Source: Enterococcus silesiacus
Lineage (GTDB): Bacteria; Bacillota; Bacilli; Lactobacillales; Enterococcaceae
Length of the DNA: 64,000 nt
Direction of reading: 5' to 3'
Assembly (NCBI GenBank): GCA_001465115.1
Contig: CP013614.1
Span: 248,001-312,000, forward strand
The position numbers were made by a program, and so were the translations under genes. Under the pieces are notes generated by a model. That model saw nothing but the letters and a program-made list of their open reading frames with translations. It ran no database searches and was not told the DNA's origin. Positions 11,998 to 45,531 of this stretch are shown here, in pieces (the first letter of the stretch is position 1; each line of letters opens with the position of its first letter).

Positions 11998-12092
11998 ATA
12001 CCAACAACAACCTTTTTATTTTTCATTTTACTCTTATTGAGTAATACTCCTTTTCCATCGGCCTTTTCAGCCGGTGGTTTTTTGTTTTTTAT
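11998..12092 (+). ncRNA. Putative small RNA of about 95 nt
   Basis: The segment lies between a good promoter and a strong terminator (CCATCGGC-CTTTTCA-GCCGGTGG followed by a T6GT6 tract, 12055-12090). It has a short inner hairpin ACTC-TTATT-GAGT near 12030. The 5' part is unstructured and rich in CAA and C/T, which is common in base-pairing regulators. The hydrophobic 79-residue frame running through it (from 11932) lacks a ribosome binding site and spans the terminator, so I consider it non-coding. Confidence 0.5.
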
Positions 12093-33587: not shown

Positions 33588-34247
33588 ATGAAGATTGAAG
33601 ATACTACCATTCCTCGGTTTAAACTTGCCACTATGAATAAAAAAAACAAATATTTAATTGATTTAGATTCTCACAAAATTTCTTGGCTTATTCCAATGTC
33701 AACATGGTTTCTAGCTAATAGCGCCATGAAAATCACGGATCAACAATATAATCATCTGAAATCTATTAAAAAGGGCAAGGCTGGAACGTCTTTGTGGTCA
33801 TTCTCAGGATTTATGATTGGTGGAATGATTTATGGCGTGTTTAAGGGAATTGAAGAGAGCTTGTTTAACAATATTACTAATGGTTTTTTAATAGGTGCAA
33901 TGCTATCTTTATTACCTATTGTTATCATTTTTAGATATTTACGTTTTTACTTTAATTCTAAAAAATTGAAAAAAAATTATGATGTTTTAAACAATAGTAA
34001 TTTTGATGGTTATATTAAGCTTAATAAAAGTGATAGAAAAAAATCGGTCTATAAAAAAAGGTGTATCACAGGTACAGTTATATTATTGGTAGTCTTTATT
34101 TTCTTATTTTATCTTTATATAGAGACGGCTTCAATGATAATGTTACCAATATTGTGTATTTATTTTATCTTTATTTCTTTTATAAATACCTCTATTCTAA
34201 AGCCTTTTGAAAGTATGGAGTATTTCTATTTCGAGAAAGGAAAATAG
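33588..34247 (+). CDS. DUF443-like five-TM immunity protein
   Basis: 219 residues, starting three bases after the toxin 2 stop, so the most likely cognate immunity gene. N-terminal hydrophilic part (EDTTIPRFKLATMNKKNKYL), the SWLIPMSTWF segment, then about five helices. It is most similar to the gene at 35620. A TsaI-like protein would sit in the membrane and stop the toxin from depolarising it from outside. Confidence 0.75.
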   Translation: MKIEDTTIPRFKLATMNKKNKYLIDLDSHKISWLIPMSTWFLANSAMKITDQQYNHLKSIKKGKAGTSLWSFSGFMIGGMIYGVFKGIEESLFNNITNGFLIGAMLSLLPIVIIFRYLRFYFNSKKLKKNYDVLNNSNFDGYIKLNKSDRKKSVYKKRCITGTVILLVVFIFLFYLYIETASMIMLPILCIYFIFISFINTSILKPFESMEYFYFEKGK

Positions 34248-34274
34248 CATCTGAGTGATGCTTTGTATTAATAA

Positions 34275-34901
34275 ATGACTGTTTATGAATCAACAAACAA
34301 AAGATACAAATTGGCAAAGTTAGATAAAAAATGCTATCTATTGGATGTAGATAGCAAAAAATTATCTTGGTTTCTGCCAATGTTTGTATGGTTACTTCCA
34401 TTTAAAGCAATGGAAATAGATAAGGGAATGTTTGATAAACTGCTAACCAATAAAAAAGCTGGATATGGCGTTGTCCAGATTGTGGTCCTCTCTATACTTA
34501 TTGGGAGACCGTCTACATGGCTAATCAACATGATTTTTCAAAATATAACTATTTCAGAAATAGAAATAAGAGCACTTTACCTGATTGCTGTTTCTGTACT
34601 GCTAATATGCTATCGTGCAGCTACTTCCATTTTTAACAAGCATAAGATGAAAAATGAATTGGGAGAAAAAAGACAAGAAATAGTTATTAGTATAGAAAAA
34701 GAAAGTATAACAAGCTATTACAAAAGGAATAGTTTAGTTGCATTGCTAATAGTTTTCATACCTATTTTTGTTACAGGATATATTAGTGTGTTTTATTCGT
34801 TTGACATGATTGTGATTTTTATTATTTGCGTTTTATTCTCTCTATTCCTTAACAGAGGGTATGTATATCCTTATGGAAGTAGTTTTTATAAGAAAGAATA
34901 A
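34275..34901 (+). CDS. DUF443-like five-TM immunity protein
   Basis: 208 residues, second copy of the array. It belongs to the subgroup with STNKRYKLAKLDKKCYLLDV and WFLPMFVWLLPFKAMEI, closest to the gene at 28428. No strong ribosome binding site precedes the ATG, so expression may depend on read-through or coupling. Confidence 0.7.
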   Translation: MTVYESTNKRYKLAKLDKKCYLLDVDSKKLSWFLPMFVWLLPFKAMEIDKGMFDKLLTNKKAGYGVVQIVVLSILIGRPSTWLINMIFQNITISEIEIRALYLIAVSVLLICYRAATSIFNKHKMKNELGEKRQEIVISIEKESITSYYKRNSLVALLIVFIPIFVTGYISVFYSFDMIVIFIICVLFSLFLNRGYVYPYGSSFYKKE

Positions 34902-34981
34902 AAAAATGTAAGTTATTTTATATAAATCCTAACAGAAATAGAAATAAGAGAACTTTGTAATTGTTTTTGGAGGTGTAAAAG

Positions 34982-35617
34982 GTAAGAATAGATAACTCTA
35001 AAATAAGTCGCTACAAGCTAGCAATTCTCAATGAAAAAAGCTATCTCATAGATATGGATACAAACAAATTGATTTGGTTCTTCCCTATGATTATCTGGTT
35101 AAATAAACTACAAGCGGTAGAAATAACTAAGGAACAGTACAATCTTCTAAAACGTGATAGTAAATATTCTGCATCAACAGGCATAAACATTGCAGCTATT
35201 GGTTTAGGTGGTGTGGTATATAGTTTTCTTAAAGGGGTAATCGATATTGTCTTTCAAACAGCAACAGTTAGTTCTTTGATAATTTCCTTTTTAGTTATTG
35301 TGATGATAGCTTTTATCTTGAGATATATCGTATCTTTAGTGAACGTGTATCAATTAAAAAAATACGAAATAACTCAAAAATCAGTGGGATATATCCAATT
35401 AGCTGAAAAGAATCCATACTACAAAAAAATTTGTTTGCAATCTATGTTCATTTTTCTAGGAGTCTATTTTTTGCTATTGTATTTGTATCTTGCTTATCTA
35501 GAGGCAGTAGTTTTAGTGATATTACTAATTCTTTCGTTTGCCTTGTTTTTCCTTAATACTCTCGTTGTTAAACCCTACAATGATATGCCGTATAAATATA
35601 TAGAATATGGTAAATAG
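34982..35617 (+). pseudogene. DUF443-like gene with lost start codon (GTA)
   Basis: Homology to the neighbours begins at 34982 (V-RIDNSKISRYKLAILNEKS-YLIDMDTNKL). TGGAGGTG lies in the normal position, but the codon there is GTA, preceded in frame by TAA. No ATG, GTG or TTG occurs in frame until ATG 35054, which would remove the conserved 24-residue N-terminus and has no ribosome binding site. The rest of the frame (five helices, to 35617) is intact. A GTG to GTA change is the simplest explanation. Rare GTA or ATA initiation is possible. Confidence 0.65.
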
Positions 35618-35619
35618 AA

Positions 35620-36267
35620 ATGAAAGTAGAAGATACATCGATATCTCGCTTTAAATTAGCAACGATCAATAAAAAGGATAAGTATTTAATTGATTTAGAC
35701 TCGCACAAATCAACTTGGTTGATTCCAATGTCTACGTGGTATGTTGCTAACAACGCTACAAAAATTAGTGAAGACCAATATATTACGCTTAAAAAAGTTC
35801 ATAAAAACAAAGCAGGCGCTTCAATATGGTCCTTTTCTGGGTCTATGCTAGGTGGCGTAATTTATGCTTTTATGAAAGGATTAGAAAGTATATTTTTTGA
35901 AGCAACAACGATGAATCTTATGGTTTTAGCTTTTCTAATCGCTTTTTTCTGTAGCTTTATTTTTAGATATATACGATCTGTAGTTAATCTTAATAAGTTG
36001 AAAAAAATTTTTAATGAGGAAACAACTCTAAAATTAGATCATCTGATTGTTTTAAAGAAGGATAATACTTTTTATAAAAAACGTTGTGTAACTGGAACGA
36101 TTATTTTGATAGCAATCTTAGTTTTTCTGTTGTCCTTATTGATCCAGGCTAAATCCTTAACAGTTATACCAGTCATATTCATCTATTTAGTGTTTGTGTC
36201 ATTTTTAAACACGTCAATAGTAAAACCTATGGAAAATATGGAATATAGTTATAAACCTGAGAAATAA
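35620..36267 (+). CDS. DUF443-like five-TM immunity protein
   Basis: 215 residues, fourth copy of the array, nearest relative of the copy at 33588 (EDTSISRFKLATINKKDKYLIDLDSHK; TWLIPMSTWY). It starts two bases after the preceding stop. Because that preceding gene has lost its start, coupled translation of this copy may also be affected. Confidence 0.7.
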   Translation: MKVEDTSISRFKLATINKKDKYLIDLDSHKSTWLIPMSTWYVANNATKISEDQYITLKKVHKNKAGASIWSFSGSMLGGVIYAFMKGLESIFFEATTMNLMVLAFLIAFFCSFIFRYIRSVVNLNKLKKIFNEETTLKLDHLIVLKKDNTFYKKRCVTGTIILIAILVFLLSLLIQAKSLTVIPVIFIYLVFVSFLNTSIVKPMENMEYSYKPEK

Positions 36268-36307
36268 CATTAAAATGCCAAGGTTCAAGTGAAAAGGAGT
36301 GAAAATT

Positions 36308-36610
36308 ATGTTAACAATCGGTAGTATCGTTTACTTAAAAGAAGGTAGTCAAAAAATTATGGTTTTAAACAGAGGTCCCGTTGTAAATGAAAATGACAAA
36401 AATGTTTTGTATGATTATAGTGGTTGCAGATATCCAAGCGGTTTAAATCCTAATGAAGTGCTTTATTTTAATCAAGAAAATGTTGATTCTATTTTGTTCA
36501 ATGGTTATACAGATGAGGAAGAAGAACGGTTTGAACAATTGTATACGGAATGGCTAAATGGTGAAGGAAAGTTGATTGATAGAGGGATTGTTAGTAAACC
36601 TCTTGGATAA
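36308..36610 (+). CDS. DUF4176-like T7SS-associated protein
   Basis: About 100 residues beginning MLTIGSIVYLKEGSQKIMVLNRG, with a central YDYSGCRYPSGLNPNEVLYF segment. This pattern is found in DUF4176 proteins that accompany T7SSb loci. It is soluble and acidic at the C-terminus. The ATG 36308 follows AAAAGGAG by nine bases; a GTG at 36299 is too close to that site. Function unknown; probably the last gene of the cassette 2 unit. Confidence 0.75.
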   Translation: MLTIGSIVYLKEGSQKIMVLNRGPVVNENDKNVLYDYSGCRYPSGLNPNEVLYFNQENVDSILFNGYTDEEEERFEQLYTEWLNGEGKLIDRGIVSKPLG

Positions 36611-37614: not shown

Positions 37615-37790
37615 AAATTTTATCAACTTTTACGCTTAAAGTATTCTGCAATAAAATTATCAAAAAGGATAAAATGAAAGTCCGGTTTTTTAATCAAAAA
37701 GTACTAAAAAATGAAAGAAACAAAGTTAAGTATGATATACTAATCAATGTAGAAAGTTATGACGGTGGCGCTCTTTAGGAGGTGGTGCAT

Positions 37791-37934
37791 ATGATTGTAT
37801 GTACTGAATCTAACGAAAGGAGAAGCCTTTTGTCCGCATTAGAAACAATTCAATTGATTCTAAGTTTTGGTATGTTTACCATTGCTTTGATTAAATTGGT
37901 TGTAGATATGCTTAAAAACGACAAAAAAAAATAA
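37791..37934 (+). CDS. Holin-like type I toxin (Hol-Tox/TxpA-like)
   Basis: The frame encodes 47 residues from ATG 37791 (after GGAGGTGG) or 34 residues from TTG 37830 (after AAAGGAG, the classical arrangement). The shorter form reads MSALETIQLILSFGMFTIA, then a second hydrophobic stretch and a KNDKKK tail. This is the pattern of the putative holin-like toxins of Gram-positive type I toxin-antitoxin systems, small peptides that damage the membrane. A bidirectional terminator follows, and a convergent antisense RNA is likely. Confidence 0.8.
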   Translation: MIVCTESNERRSLLSALETIQLILSFGMFTIALIKLVVDMLKNDKKK

Positions 37935-38043
37935 CCGTCAACTTTGGCTAGTTCGGTTATTTTTTATAAGTAATTAAACTAAGTCGCCGTCTTAAACGGT
38001 CTACACAAGAGAGGTATGTTAGCGCATATCTCTCTTTTCTATT
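37925..38043 (-). ncRNA. Candidate antisense RNA antitoxin
   Basis: On the minus strand TATAAT lies near 38050-38055, so transcription could begin near 38042. It would read through a hairpin (AGAGAGATATG / CATACCTCTCT) and end at the shared terminator with its T tract at about 37925-37930. The convergent 3'-overlap matches the txpA/ratA layout. The -35 element is weak (TACAAT). Confidence 0.55.
37929..37966. terminator. Bidirectional terminator of the toxin and antisense RNA
   Basis: AATAACCG (37930-37937) / CGGTTATT (37954-37961), with T tracts on both strands. Confidence 0.85.
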
Positions 38044-38143
38044 TTATTATACTACAAAACCCTAAAAAATTGTAGTTTAACATGAAGATTTTCACGTTTA
38101 AATATAAAAAGGAAATTCTCAAAAAGGATCGATAGCAGCATGC

Positions 38144-41146: not shown

Positions 41147-42412
41147 TTAAACTAATAATTCTGGGTGACTATTTAAAAACTCTATTATTTGTCTACTCAT
41201 TTTTTCTGCGAGTAAAACAGGAACAGCATTTCCAATTTGTTTATATTGTTCATTCAGTCTATGATTTTTACTTACATGTTTTTTATTACCATCCGAAAAT
41301 TCAAACCAATCAGGAAATGATTGTATTCTCGCGCATTCTCTAACTGATAGTCGTCTGTTGAAATCACCTCGAAATGCCCATAAATCTTTTCCAATATGTT
41401 CCATTGGTTCTCCGCCAGGATGTTGAGGTGCTTGTCTACCAGAGGCTTGAATGGTAAATGATTGATCATTCCAATTTTTCTTTCTGTTTCTCGACATATA
41501 CATAGAGCTATAAGTTGCATCATAGACATCCTCAGCAGCTTCAGATAAATCTCCAATGACATCTCTGAGTGTTAGATATGGTTGATCAATTGTTCCATGA
41601 GTTGGTTTTGGAAGAGTATATTCAAAATTATATTTTTCCTTTATATCTTTTCGAACACCAATGATAAAAACACGTTCACGATTTTGCGCTACTCCGTAAT
41701 CTCTTGCATTAACTAAATGTGGTGTTACAACGTAATCCGCAGCTTCAAAATCTTCTATCATTTGTTTTAAGACTTGACCTTTAGCCATTGTCATAAGACC
41801 TTTAACATTTTCCGCAATAAAAAACGCTGGTTTAGATTGAATTAAGGCACGAATGTAATGTATATATAAGAAGTTTCTAGGGTCATCTAATAATCTTGGA
41901 CCAGCGGCACTGAATCCCGGACATGGAAATCCACCTAGCATCAAATTGCAATCTGGAAATTTCAATACTTTTCGAATATCTTTAGAAACTTTTGTAACAC
42001 TTTTTGGGAAATTCTTAATATATGTCAAGTTGGCAGATTCAAAAAGATCATTTGAATATATAAAATTAGTAATACTTTTTTTTCTCCAGTTTAAATACTT
42101 GTCTTTGCTATTTAAAGTAAGGTATGCTTTTTCTTCACCTTCAGATACAACAGCTCCAGATAATTCGACACCTAAATCAAGCCCACCTGCACCACTGAAT
42201 AATGAGACAATATTTATCTTTTCTGCTTTGTAGTTTAAACTTCCTAACAATCTTTTTTCTTCATCTTGATCAGCAGAAGTAATATTACTACTCAGAATTT
42301 CATTTTCTTCCTGTATCTTTTCAAATAAAATTCGCTGAACCTCTTCAGGGGTGTAGCTAAATGAAGATACAAAATTCTTGGTTTTTTTGTTTGTTGTTTC
42401 CACAATGATCAC
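41147..42412 (-). CDS. dcm: DNA (cytosine-5-)-methyltransferase
   Basis: 421 residues with the ordered motifs of C5 methylases: I (NIVSLFSGAGGLDLGVE), IV (GGFPCPGFS, catalytic Cys164), VI (AENVKGL), VIII (QNRERVFIIGV) and X (YKQIGNAVPVLLA). The target-recognition region lies between about residues 260 and 370. A 65-residue N-terminal extension precedes motif I. Such enzymes protect host DNA in type II systems. The neighbouring nuclease genes are on the opposite strand on both sides. Confidence 0.92.
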   Translation of the reverse strand: MIIVETTNKKTKNFVSSFSYTPEEVQRILFEKIQEENEILSSNITSADQDEEKRLLGSLNYKAEKINIVSLFSGAGGLDLGVELSGAVVSEGEEKAYLTLNSKDKYLNWRKKSITNFIYSNDLFESANLTYIKNFPKSVTKVSKDIRKVLKFPDCNLMLGGFPCPGFSAAGPRLLDDPRNFLYIHYIRALIQSKPAFFIAENVKGLMTMAKGQVLKQMIEDFEAADYVVTPHLVNARDYGVAQNRERVFIIGVRKDIKEKYNFEYTLPKPTHGTIDQPYLTLRDVIGDLSEAAEDVYDATYSSMYMSRNRKKNWNDQSFTIQASGRQAPQHPGGEPMEHIGKDLWAFRGDFNRRLSVRECARIQSFPDWFEFSDGNKKHVSKNHRLNEQYKQIGNAVPVLLAEKMSRQIIEFLNSHPELLV

Positions 42413-42521: not shown

Positions 42522-43388
42522 ATGACGACACCTACAACAAATGTTCTTATTGCATTATCAAACATCCTTCAAAGAAATTCATCAATATTAACGCCTATTT
42601 TTCGATCAAATGGATCAGCCAATGCCGCTGGTGATAGTCTTGAATATTTTATAAAAGATATGTTTTGTACTGGAGCCTCACAATACCAATATGATTATGA
42701 AAAAGATGAAGTTTACGATAAATATCTATCCTGGAAAGGAAATAGTTCAAACTTTCCGGATTTTATAGTACGTGGTGGTGTGGGCGTAGAACCGAAAAAA
42801 TTGAATAATACAAGTTATTCAACTTTAGCATTGAATAGTTCATATCCTAAAGACTACATATATCCAGATAGCCAAAATCTTCCTAAAATTATTGACGAAT
42901 CCAATTGGGAGAAAAAAGAAGTCATATATGTAGCAGGAAATTTAAATAAATCAAATAAATTAATAAGTTTGTGGTTCGCATATGGTAACACTATGGTAGC
43001 AGATAGAAGTGTTTATTTAGATCTAATTAATGATATACGTGAAGCGGTAAAGGAAACTGATGCTACTTTAGTTCCAAGTATTGAATTAGCACGTGCTAGA
43101 GGTATTGATCCACTAAAATATACAAATCTTAGAATGAGAGGAATGTATGAATTACAGCATCCGCACATTGTATTTAACGAGTATATTTCTAGGCATGATA
43201 TACCGTTGGAAGCTTCAAAAATTTTTCTTGTATTACTAAAAAAAGATTATGAGAACATTCAAGATAAACCTGATTTAAGTGAATTCTATTTTAATGGACA
43301 ATTAACGAGTCATGAAATTTTTATTGATGATCCCAATTCTACTGAAAATAAATTAGAGGCTATAATTTTTGAAGGATGGACTAGATAA
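42522..43388 (+). CDS. Type II restriction endonuclease, NgoPII-like
   Basis: 288 residues with a PD-(D/E)XK active site: Pro79-Asp80 in NFPDFIV and Glu90-Pro-Lys92 in GVEPKK, ten residues apart as usual. An early SANAAGDSLEYFIKDMF segment and the ALNSSYPK segment after the active site recall the NgoPII family (which cuts GGCC). It is divergent from the methylase, with about 110 bases between them. GGGAGAG precedes the ATG. Confidence 0.75.
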   Translation: MTTPTTNVLIALSNILQRNSSILTPIFRSNGSANAAGDSLEYFIKDMFCTGASQYQYDYEKDEVYDKYLSWKGNSSNFPDFIVRGGVGVEPKKLNNTSYSTLALNSSYPKDYIYPDSQNLPKIIDESNWEKKEVIYVAGNLNKSNKLISLWFAYGNTMVADRSVYLDLINDIREAVKETDATLVPSIELARARGIDPLKYTNLRMRGMYELQHPHIVFNEYISRHDIPLEASKIFLVLLKKDYENIQDKPDLSEFYFNGQLTSHEIFIDDPNSTENKLEAIIFEGWTR

Positions 43389-44011: not shown

Positions 44012-44320
44012 CTACTCCAAATCCATTTTCCTAACCTCAAACCCAGTCTCAACCTTCTCAGCCCTAACCATCTCCATCACCAATTCATCCCCCAACTCAA
44101 TCAACCGATTATAATCCTCATAAAAAGCATGAAACATCTGCGCCCGAGCATAATACTCCTTCACAATCCGTTTCTTATTGATCGGCCCAGACCGAAACTG
44201 AAAAAAATGATCCAAAATCGCCAAAGGCTCCTGCCAAGAAGCCATCTTCTCCATAAAATCCCGCAACTCAATAATATCCTGATACGTAACCGCCTTTAAA
44301 TTCTGTCCTTGTTTATCCAT
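44012..44320 (-). CDS. Hypothetical helical protein (102 aa)
   Basis: From ATG 44320 (with GAGATCAGGAGA directly upstream) the product is helical and charged (QDIIELRDFMEKMASWQEPL...). The open frame reaches back to 44464, but that part is not preceded by a ribosome binding site and its composition differs, so I treat it as non-coding. The family is unknown. Codon use is GC-richer than that of the toxin genes around it. Confidence 0.5.
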   Translation of the reverse strand: MDKQGQNLKAVTYQDIIELRDFMEKMASWQEPLAILDHFFQFRSGPINKKRIVKEYYARAQMFHAFYEDYNRLIELGDELVMEMVRAEKVETGFEVRKMDLE

Positions 44321-44662
44321 TCTCCTGATCTCCTTCAAATAAGGCGGAGAAAAGCCGATAAGTGCCAAACGAAATCCAAGCCCAAACCCAACTTCTCCCA
44401 CCAGTTTTCTCACTGAATTTCGTGCTTCAGCAATTCTTTTTCTATATGCGCATTGACGAGGCAAACCTATAACCCAGCGCTACAAATGACTTTCAAAGCC
44501 TTGCGGTATTCATAACGCCTTGTTCCAGAGAAAACAAAAAAACGATACCGAACCTGTCAATACCGCCATCAATCAGCTAAACCAAACCCACAATTCACTC
44601 CTAAACCACCCTTAATCCCAAGAAATTAACAAAACCAACTAGAATTTCAAAAGAAAATTAGG
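44321..44662. other. Intergenic region with possible DUF3130 remnant
   Basis: Plus-strand bases about 44551-44616 read NDTEPVNTAINQLNQTHNSL, resembling the middle of the Lap1-like proteins (NSNAQQAITQLTTFNTSLVQ in the copy at 31590). The match is short and unsupported by a start codon. Nothing else is visible. Confidence 0.3.
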
Positions 44663-44780
44663 TACAATAAAGAAGCTAGTGCTTCGGTGCTAGCAAATTG
44701 GCAACTTGTGTAGACAGGGTCTAGATGTCTGTACAAGGCTTCATCGTTTGGTTGCCGCCAAACGGTGAAGTGCCTTTTTG
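44663..44780 (+). ncRNA. Structured small RNA, copy 1
   Basis: A TACAAT -10 box (44663-44668) precedes a roughly 105-nt transcript with three stems. Stem 1 is GCTAG (44675-44679) / CTAGC (44690-44694). Stem 2 is CTTGTGTAGACA (44705-44716) / TGTCTGTACAAG (44726-44737) with GTCTAG in its loop. Stem 3 is the terminator GGCTTCATCGTTTGG / CCAAACGGTGAAGTGCC with a T5 tract. GGCAAC (44700-44705) is complementary to GTTGCC (44751-44756) in the stem 3 loop. The same plan recurs in copy 2. Confidence 0.75.
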
Positions 44781-44960
44781 TTTTATCCAGTTTTTCATCT
44801 ATTCTTAAAATACTCCTCCCTTCAAAATAGTCGTAGGACAGAAAAAAACGGCATTGAGCAGATGCCCAATACCGTCGACAATAGACTAATCCCATATACA
44901 CAACAACCAATCATCACCGAAAAAAGCAAAGATTTCCTAGAAATCCCAACCTATTTTAGG

Positions 44961-45084
44961 TACAATAAAGAAGCTAGTACATGTTGCTAGCACTATTGGC
45001 AACTTGTTTGGACTATGTCTAGCATGTCTTAACAAGGCTTCGATCGTAAGGTTGCCGCCGAACGATTGAAGTGCCAATTTTTAT
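44961..45084 (+). ncRNA. Structured small RNA, copy 2
   Basis: 298 bases downstream of copy 1 and in the same orientation. It has the -10 box TACAAT (44961-44966) in TTTTAGGTACAATAAAG, stem 1 GCTAG (44973) / CTAGC (44987), and stem 2 CTTGTT-GGAC / GTC-AACAAG with the GTCTAG loop. The stem 3 terminator is CTTCGATCGT / ACGATTGAAG with a T5 tract. GGCAAC (44998-45003) and GTTGCC (45051-45056) are unchanged. Stem bases differ from copy 1 but pairing is kept. Confidence 0.75.
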
Positions 45085-45531
45085 TTATATGTCTTGAATC
45101 GATCAACGATTCGAATTTCTATCCTACACATTTTATTATACCGAAAGACACCACCCACCGCAACGAAATTCGGCATTTCCACCCATTAAATAACACCAAA
45201 AACAGCGCCCTTATATATAAGAAAAAATAACAAAATTTTTTCAATTTCTTTAACATTTCCTCGTACTGAACGATATAGTTGAAATTTAAAAATCGTATTT
45301 CTTCTAAATGAAGTGAATATTCTAAAAAAGAAGATTTATGCTTAAACGATTAGGTGTAAATCTGTTTTTTTTAAAATATTCTATAAAAAAACCATTTTAA
45401 ATCTCAAATTTGCAAAATTTTTACGTCACAAAGAAATATTTGATAACTATAAGGTATGTAAATGTGGCAAAATGGTAGTTGTGGAGTCTAGATATACGTG
45501 AAGGTAAAAACATGGCAAAGGGGTTTGGGAA
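45085..45531. other. AT-rich region upstream of LXG cassette 3
   Basis: Holds a hairpin GAATCG-ATCAA-CGATTC near 45094-45112 and probably the cassette 3 promoter (a TATAAG near 45452-45457 is a weak candidate). It does not match the 107-bp promoter segment of cassettes 1 and 2. Confidence 0.4.

Follow-up and report, generated by a model that had tools for sequence, protein, structure and literature searches.

Tandem structured RNAs of a large unnamed family in Enterococcus: candidate antisense attenuators with locus-specific loops

A 64,000-nt stretch of the Enterococcus silesiacus genome (GCA_001465115.1, contig CP013614.1, positions 248,001–312,000; hereafter the window, with positions counted from its first nucleotide) carries two direct copies, A and B, of a structured element of approximately 110 nt. 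Their main sequence blocks start 298 nt apart (298–301 nt across all blocks). The locus raises the question of what these two putative RNAs are, why they come as a pair and on what they might act.

Two predicted RNAs and their relatives

The first-pass annotation of this region, made from the sequence alone, described two small RNAs in the same direction with covarying stems, a shared three-stem plan and a terminator, and our analysis bears this out. The 20-nt promoter/5' block AGGTACAATAAAGNAGCTAG occurs twice in the window and in none of 100 shuffles (allowing up to three mismatches). RNA A folds at a predicted -50.7 kcal/mol (z = -6.2) and RNA B at -45.1 kcal/mol (z = -6.1); for each, 0 of 200 shuffles was equally stable. 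Both follow the same predicted plan, in which hairpin 1 precedes a three-way junction (stems P2 and P3) and a U-tract (Table 1). The 5' part of copy A is paired differently from hairpin 1 in the minimum-energy fold; copy B and the alignment of homologues show the GCTAG/CTAGC pairing of this hairpin. The TAGAA element reported earlier is present before both copies, at a spacing of 18 nt to the -10 box instead of the approximately 17 nt given there. The sequence at the -35 position of these predicted promoters, CTAGAA(A), is unusual and is also seen in some relatives outside the genus; a regulator or a special sigma factor might recognize it.

Table 1. Predicted features of the tandem locus, in window coordinates
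Feature	Position	Strand	Details
Gene X, 102 aa, family without a name	44012..44320	-	ribosome site AAGGAG 44335-44330
T_A, terminator upstream of A	44536..44565	-	
RNA A promoter	44639..44668	+	TAGAA element at -35 position; -10 TACAAT 44663-44668; kept in orthologues and paralogues
RNA A	44674..44779	+	hairpin 1, three-way junction with P2 and P3, U-tract; 86.2 bits
RNA A loops	P2 loop core 44719-44724; P3 loop 44752-44757	+	GTCTAG (P2), TTGCCG (P3); common to B
Leader domain B closing stem, 3' arm	44833..44844	-	UUUCUGUCCUAC; overlaps end of T_B U-tract
T_B, intrinsic terminator between A and B	44842..44876	-	hairpin and U-tract
RNA B promoter	44937..44966	+	TAGAA element; -10 TACAAT 44961-44966
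RNA B	44972..45084	+	same plan as A; 77.8 bits
RNA B loops	P2 loop core 45017-45022; P3 loop 45052-45057	+	GTCTAG (P2), TTGCCG (P3); common to A
Leader domain B closing stem, 5' arm	45116..45127	-	GUAGGAUAGAAA
Opposite-strand promoter	45135..45163	-	TTGCGG-N17-TATAAT, start near 45128
D element	45186..45231		TTAAATAACA..CTTATATATAAG..AAAAATAACA; by eye; between minus promoter and variable cassette

In an alignment of 55 homologues (A1, MAFFT), whose own RNAalifold consensus served as the structure, so that one control leans in the structure's favor, 92.4% of the cells were paired against 82.8% in shuffles, and cells with both sides changed numbered 125 against 35. Pairing on A1 was 38–46% when the partner was slid by one to three columns. 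The covariation of the RNA stems is real. Among 23 of the 25 pairs (all but the constant U-G pair 63/69 and the outer pair 4/88), the plus-strand RNA has 104 G-U cells and 18 A-C cells, which are not independent events; this excess points to a folded RNA on the plus strand. A candidate pseudoknot, GGCAAC with the P3 loop GUUGCC, was dropped upon inspection by eye, as the P3 loop varies (UUGGCG, UUGUCG, UUCCCG and others) without a matching change.

The claim that the RNAs belong to no named family withstood both strict and relaxed comparison with Rfam. A scan of the window against Rfam 15 at gathering thresholds gave three hits, all outside RNAs A and B, and a scan of 44400-45300 to E = 10 gave a lone row (E 6.8) outside the RNAs. 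Relatives at 13 further loci matched no Rfam family above the gathering threshold; one rli117 match was seen at locus L113. Elsewhere in the window, matches to the Rfam families rli28 and RatA stand back to back (37726-37905, plus strand, and 37960-38049, minus strand), an arrangement that looks like a type I toxin-antitoxin module, and a match to Ref84, an Enterococcus sRNA, lies at 11999-12085 (plus strand). Full-text literature searches, judged on titles and abstract openings among the matches listed and with most subscription journals outside their scope, retrieved no description of the RNA family.

BLAST with the second copy found nine places in the E. silesiacus genome. A covariance model of an 84-position core, for which 55 copies were used, detected 27 places at E ≤ 1, of which 26 also pass E ≤ 0.001. 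The 26 comprise nine tandem pairs (18 copies), three singletons and five copies among polymorphic-toxin cassettes at 2678–2684 kb; the 27th, at 2554 kb, is weak (E 0.008). Weak model matches in the window at 34310 (17.5 bits), 31955 (14.6 bits) and 59473 (10.6 bits) were left uncounted. The scan of enterococcal genomes with a covariance model, which the first-pass annotation had proposed, found copies in all 22 genomes of the genus (7–32 model hits each). Copies were present in 60/105 genomes of the family and 54/295 of the order sample, both under-counts owing to stricter filters and the few candidates scored per genome. An exact 21-nt block occurs in records of Enterococcus moraviensis, plantarum, crotali, caccae, ureilyticus, quebecensis, ureasiticus and sp. 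DIV0212c, and also in an Isobaculum melis record. On sequence grounds, the two RNAs are members of a large family without a name.

Loops matched within pairs

Our main set consists of 56 tandem pairs from six genomes, picked by eye from the lists of model matches. The whole P2 apex is identical between A and B in 37 of these pairs, and a 6-mer is shared in the P2 apex of 52, compared to 56 of 490 mismatched pairs from the same genome. For the P3 loop, identity was found in 38/56 pairs and in 7/490 mismatched ones. Four pairs lack a common P2-apex 6-mer (L139, L157, L169, and L170), and L158 has a 6-mer in common, yet its loops differ by eye. The observed P2-apex match of 11.8 compares with 5.8 ± 0.37 when partners are permuted within genomes, with none of 20000 permutations as high. 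An initial set of 48 pairs (96 of 120 rows, the remainder being singles or second views of the same places; orthologues included) had a mean longest common P2-apex stretch of 10.3, against 5.2 ± 0.25 for permuted partners (0/2000 as high); its weakest matches were L050 (3), L021 (4), and L015, L024 and L025 (5 each).

Column by column, the excess identity between A and B has its highest values in the P2 loop, where it reaches +0.64, and in the P3 loop, with +0.55; several stem columns are also in excess, up to approximately +0.4, partly since the pairs fall into types. The stems keep an A- or B-type sequence within pairs, and the loops vary across loci and species. At the locus of the window in 14 genomes (E. 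silesiacus included), stems and flanks are kept and the loop occurs in several forms, among them GTCTAG, GCTAGTA, GCTCTTAA, TAACGG and GCTTTGGG. Two loci of one genome had the P2 loop in common in 2/245 comparisons and both loops in 0/245; across genomes, P2 was in common in 12/1076 comparisons of different type and 20/219 of the same type, where types are rough clusters, the largest of which lumps several loci. Judged by 2/245 within and 12/1076 between genomes, loop uniqueness is no stronger than that of random loops.

Matched central hexamers between inverted arms could also mark a DNA element, in which A and B would be recombination sites, or the ends of a non-autonomous mobile element, and the loops overlap sequences that need to match. 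The inverted repeats around unit B at many loci and the spacer-like position of single copies between toxin cassettes are in line with this. We nevertheless consider it improbable: the promoter-like sites and U-tracts are kept, the bias of G-U over A-C is strand-specific, the orthologous position and its flanks are retained in 14 genomes, and there is no recombinase among the neighboring proteins scanned. A mobile-element or coding match that might account for both copies, a possibility named by the first-pass annotation, did not turn up: copy A had no match in a plasmid collection, copy B had none in a phage collection, and no coding explanation was found.

Streptococcal csRNAs and Listeria LhrC are multicopy sRNA families, some of whose copies lie in tandem, that act in trans with shared motifs. 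It is unlikely, in our estimate, that A and B are redundant sRNAs of this kind, with the common loop serving as seed for one distant mRNA and following that target. Each locus would then require its own coevolving distant target, and the conserved terminators and gene X on the opposite strand, described below, would be left unexplained. Such a role would nonetheless suit a multicopy family with promoter-like sites, U-tracts and two matched loops per pair. It also agrees with a scan for local targets in 48 pairs (five with a trimmed loop shorter than 5 nt skipped; G-U pairing disallowed), in which neither the loop nor its complement was enriched over permuted loops at distances of up to 1 kb from the pair (lowest p 0.34 across 12 region-strand combinations). 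At the 2688k locus the P2 loop and a terminator loop match over 10 bp; this was a single occurrence and was treated as chance.

Terminators and a small gene on the opposite strand

Gene X runs away from the RNAs on the other strand, and its predicted promoter lies beyond RNA B (Table 1). The -10 box and the TTGC of this promoter are marked invariant in a 14-row conservation line (rows seen in part). A strict promoter pattern occurs within 230 nt downstream of B on the minus strand in 42/56 pairs and on the plus strand in 1/56 (for a limit of 160 nt, the counts are 37 and 0); relaxing the pattern gives 56/56 and 11/56, respectively. The best sigma70 matches score 9.18 on the minus strand, against 8.87 for shuffled sequence, and 8.46 on the plus strand. 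As these scores are barely above those of shuffles and the relaxed pattern is found on both strands, the prediction of the minus promoter rests on its conservation and on the strict pattern. The D element was recognized by eye at six of the nine paired loci, and unalike sequence starts after it; it could be an operator.

The spacer between A and B holds a minus-facing terminator in 55/56 pairs and a plus-facing one in 1/56. T_A, upstream of A, was found in 41/56 by this count. A second count, with a stricter rule for T_A, found the T_B hairpin in 56/56 pairs (33 distinct hairpins; 56 G-U against 1 A-C on the minus strand) and T_A in 27/56 (20 distinct hairpins; 31 G-U against 9 A-C on the minus strand). 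The search of the second count demands a minus-strand T-run, and its pairing rule treats G-U and A-C alike. The excess of G-U in the T_B hairpins supports folding of the terminator on the minus strand. In the window, leader domain B has a predicted fold of -101.5 kcal/mol (z = -6.3), in which a 12-bp closing stem encloses T_B and the antisense of the three-way junction; the fold of the unit-A leader is less exceptional (z = -2.8). The closing stem overlaps the T_B U-tract, while the terminator hairpin coexists with the stem in the predicted fold, and no mutually exclusive antiterminator was demonstrated in the predicted leader folds of units A and B.

A gene X-like ORF with a ribosome site accompanies 40/56 pairs, 7 of them partial or broken in the scan, and the ORF scan found none at the other 16. 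An 89-aa ORF at L119 aligned poorly (12%) and was left out. Intact copies encode 82–103 aa; the products carry much charge, and inspection by eye showed no long hydrophobic stretch. Relatives of gene X number 75 proteins at E ≤ 0.001, hypothetical or uncharacterized wherever named; the organisms in their names are Enterococcus, save for one record labeled Erwinia, and none of the 75 has a precomputed Pfam domain. Four copies of gene X had no match in NCBIfam, PHROGs or PADLOC. The best solved-structure match has an E of 0.2, and an AlphaFold model from 13 sequences is helical and weak (pLDDT 68, pTM 0.33). MazE/AbrB-like short ORFs were noted by eye downstream of gene X at L042, L133, L144 and L164, and also at L167; some of these loci may hold a toxin-antitoxin gene as well. 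At L042 (2366 kb in the E. silesiacus genome) the RNA pair adjoins a Cas3-like gene.

In type I toxin-antitoxin modules such as TxpA/RatA and Fst, a small antisense RNA overlaps the opposite transcript. Were A and B antitoxins of this type, the toxin would be gene X or a leader peptide. An antisense RNA beside a small gene, the rli28 and RatA matches in the window and a Hol_Tox ORF near the 186k pair speak for it. The charged, 82–103-aa product of intact gene X copies, without a long hydrophobic stretch by eye, speaks against it, as do the small leader ORFs, which are unalike by eye at three loci. A short hydrophobic toxin peptide opposite the RNAs was not seen with gene X read by eye, and we regard a type I module as decidedly improbable.

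We favor, with slightly better than even confidence, the reading that RNAs A and B are antisense RNAs encoded in cis, which gate terminators within the gene X leader. Antisense A and B would lie opposite a long leader of this gene, in which T_B would follow the antisense-B region and T_A the antisense-A region, ahead of gene X. The P2 and P3 loops would kiss the nascent leader and so alter read-through of T_B and T_A. In this proposal A and B have both loops in common since either RNA is then able to act on both segments of the leader. Differences in loops block cross-action of plasmid antisense RNAs, and locus-specific loops would similarly prevent such interference among the many copies. Repression is the likelier sign of the effect, by analogy with pT181 and pIP501. 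The RNA structures, their positions, the strand-specific bias, the matched loops, the opposite-strand terminators and gene X can be read from the sequence, whereas the promoters of both strands are predictions, and transcription, RNA pairing, the change in read-through and the role of gene X are inferred.

Single copies, toxin cassettes and known systems

The first-pass annotation placed the RNAs upstream of an LXG cassette, implying a link between the two. This stands in part. Among the neighbors scanned, four of the nine pairs in the E. silesiacus genome lie beside LXG-like or polymorphic-toxin genes (window, 1882k, 1946k, and 2688k); the more constant partner of the pairs is the opposite-strand terminators with gene X. 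At the orthologous locus in 14 genomes the pair and its flanks are kept, and by eye the sequence is unalike after about +160 of B. The genome has 12 LXG matches at E ≤ 0.1. Six of these are within 2 kb of an RNA copy (294, 1880, 1944, 2681, 2683, and 2555 kb), with the one at 2555 kb adjoining the weak copy, and the other six, which include the window matches at 273.9 and 280.3 kb, are not. In the order sample of 295 genomes, the RNA was found in 54 (E ≤ 1e-4), an LXG match in 76 (E ≤ 0.001) and both in 36, against 13.9 expected if independent, an excess inflated by shared ancestry; 18 genomes had the RNA without an LXG match. The window also contains a row of four DUF443 genes and one DUF4176 gene after a 446-aa ORF (33588-36610, plus strand), possibly immunity-like genes of another LXG cassette, and a C5 cytosine methylase gene (41147-42412, minus strand) that adjoins one for an NgoPII-like restriction enzyme (42522-43388, plus strand).

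Among 26 single copies, 21 have an opposite-strand frame of at least 60 codons that ends between -27 and +37 nt from the end of the RNA core; L087, L088, L089, L117 and L120 have none. In the 160 nt upstream of the core, 18 of the 21 have an opposite-strand terminator and 11 a plus-oriented one, so that the direction is less clear than at the pairs. The 21 singles come from seven loci, namely L054 and six that were scanned for domains. Five of the scanned loci (L093, L112, L118, L121, and L123) carry toxin domains, namely Ntox30, LHH, LXG, Tox-MPTase4, CdiA_C and EndoU; at the sixth, L113, the single protein scanned had no match. In its predicted layout of transcript, antisense segment and terminator, the single-copy geometry resembles that of the pairs.

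Hairpins that end both strands close together, with the upstream hairpin of singles two-way in several cases, might suggest plain bidirectional terminators between convergent transcripts, their loops matched through gene conversion of neighboring copies only. This is highly improbable given the promoter-like sites before A and B, the excess identity, highest in the two loops and lower in stem columns, and the replacement of loops between species while stems stay.

Extended to all copies, the antisense reading would yield a chromosome-wide set of orthogonal, barcoded switches, in which the private two-loop address of a pair gates terminators before a small gene and singles gate read-through at the ends of polymorphic-toxin/immunity cassettes, in Enterococcus and other Lactobacillales. 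We put this forward tentatively, at less than even confidence, the plus-facing upstream hairpins at 11 of the 21 singles having lowered its odds. If true, antisense attenuation with self/non-self loops, familiar from plasmids, would be used many times on one chromosome, providing a naturally occurring collection of RNA switches whose loops differ, part of it tied to secreted-toxin cassettes. It would also pose an evolutionary puzzle, in that two loops in two RNAs change together and the stems do not.

How does this arrangement compare to known systems? Like the antisense RNAs of TxpA/RatA and Fst, A and B would overlap an opposite transcript, and a RatA match lies in the same window; different from these, no short hydrophobic toxin was seen opposite A and B, which do not match the RatA model. 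Compared to the csRNAs and LhrC, the loops of A and B are locus-specific and the opposite-strand unit is conserved. The Salmonella mgtCBR leader likewise has two attenuators in tandem, but these respond to translation of leader peptides and not to antisense RNAs (PMC3641672).

The closest likeness in layout is to the attenuators of pT181 and pIP501, where an antisense RNA lies opposite a leader with a terminator upstream of the gene. The locus has the corresponding sequence features: a structured antisense RNA opposite the leader of the predicted gene X transcript, and an intrinsic terminator in that leader downstream of the antisense region (T_B in 55/56 pairs; G-U to A-C 56:1). Binding of RNAIII to the RepR leader is reported to bring about a terminator-like structure, by which the transcript is attenuated in a way similar to pT181, and plasmid incompatibility is described as a failure to tell self from non-self (PMC5703833). 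Hypervariable loops that match within a pair would be the chromosome's equivalent of such incompatibility. Plasmid copy control itself does not describe the locus: the window is part of a 3.93-Mb contig, gene X has no match in NCBIfam, PHROGs or PADLOC, and there was no plasmid match. The A/B system differs from pT181 and pIP501 in being chromosomal, with up to 32 model hits per genome, in having two antisense RNAs, two terminators in tandem and two matched loops per pair, and in its putative target, a small uncharacterized protein and not a replication initiator. Antisense attenuation as such is of a known kind; its chromosomal, tandem form with two-loop barcodes is, to our knowledge, new.
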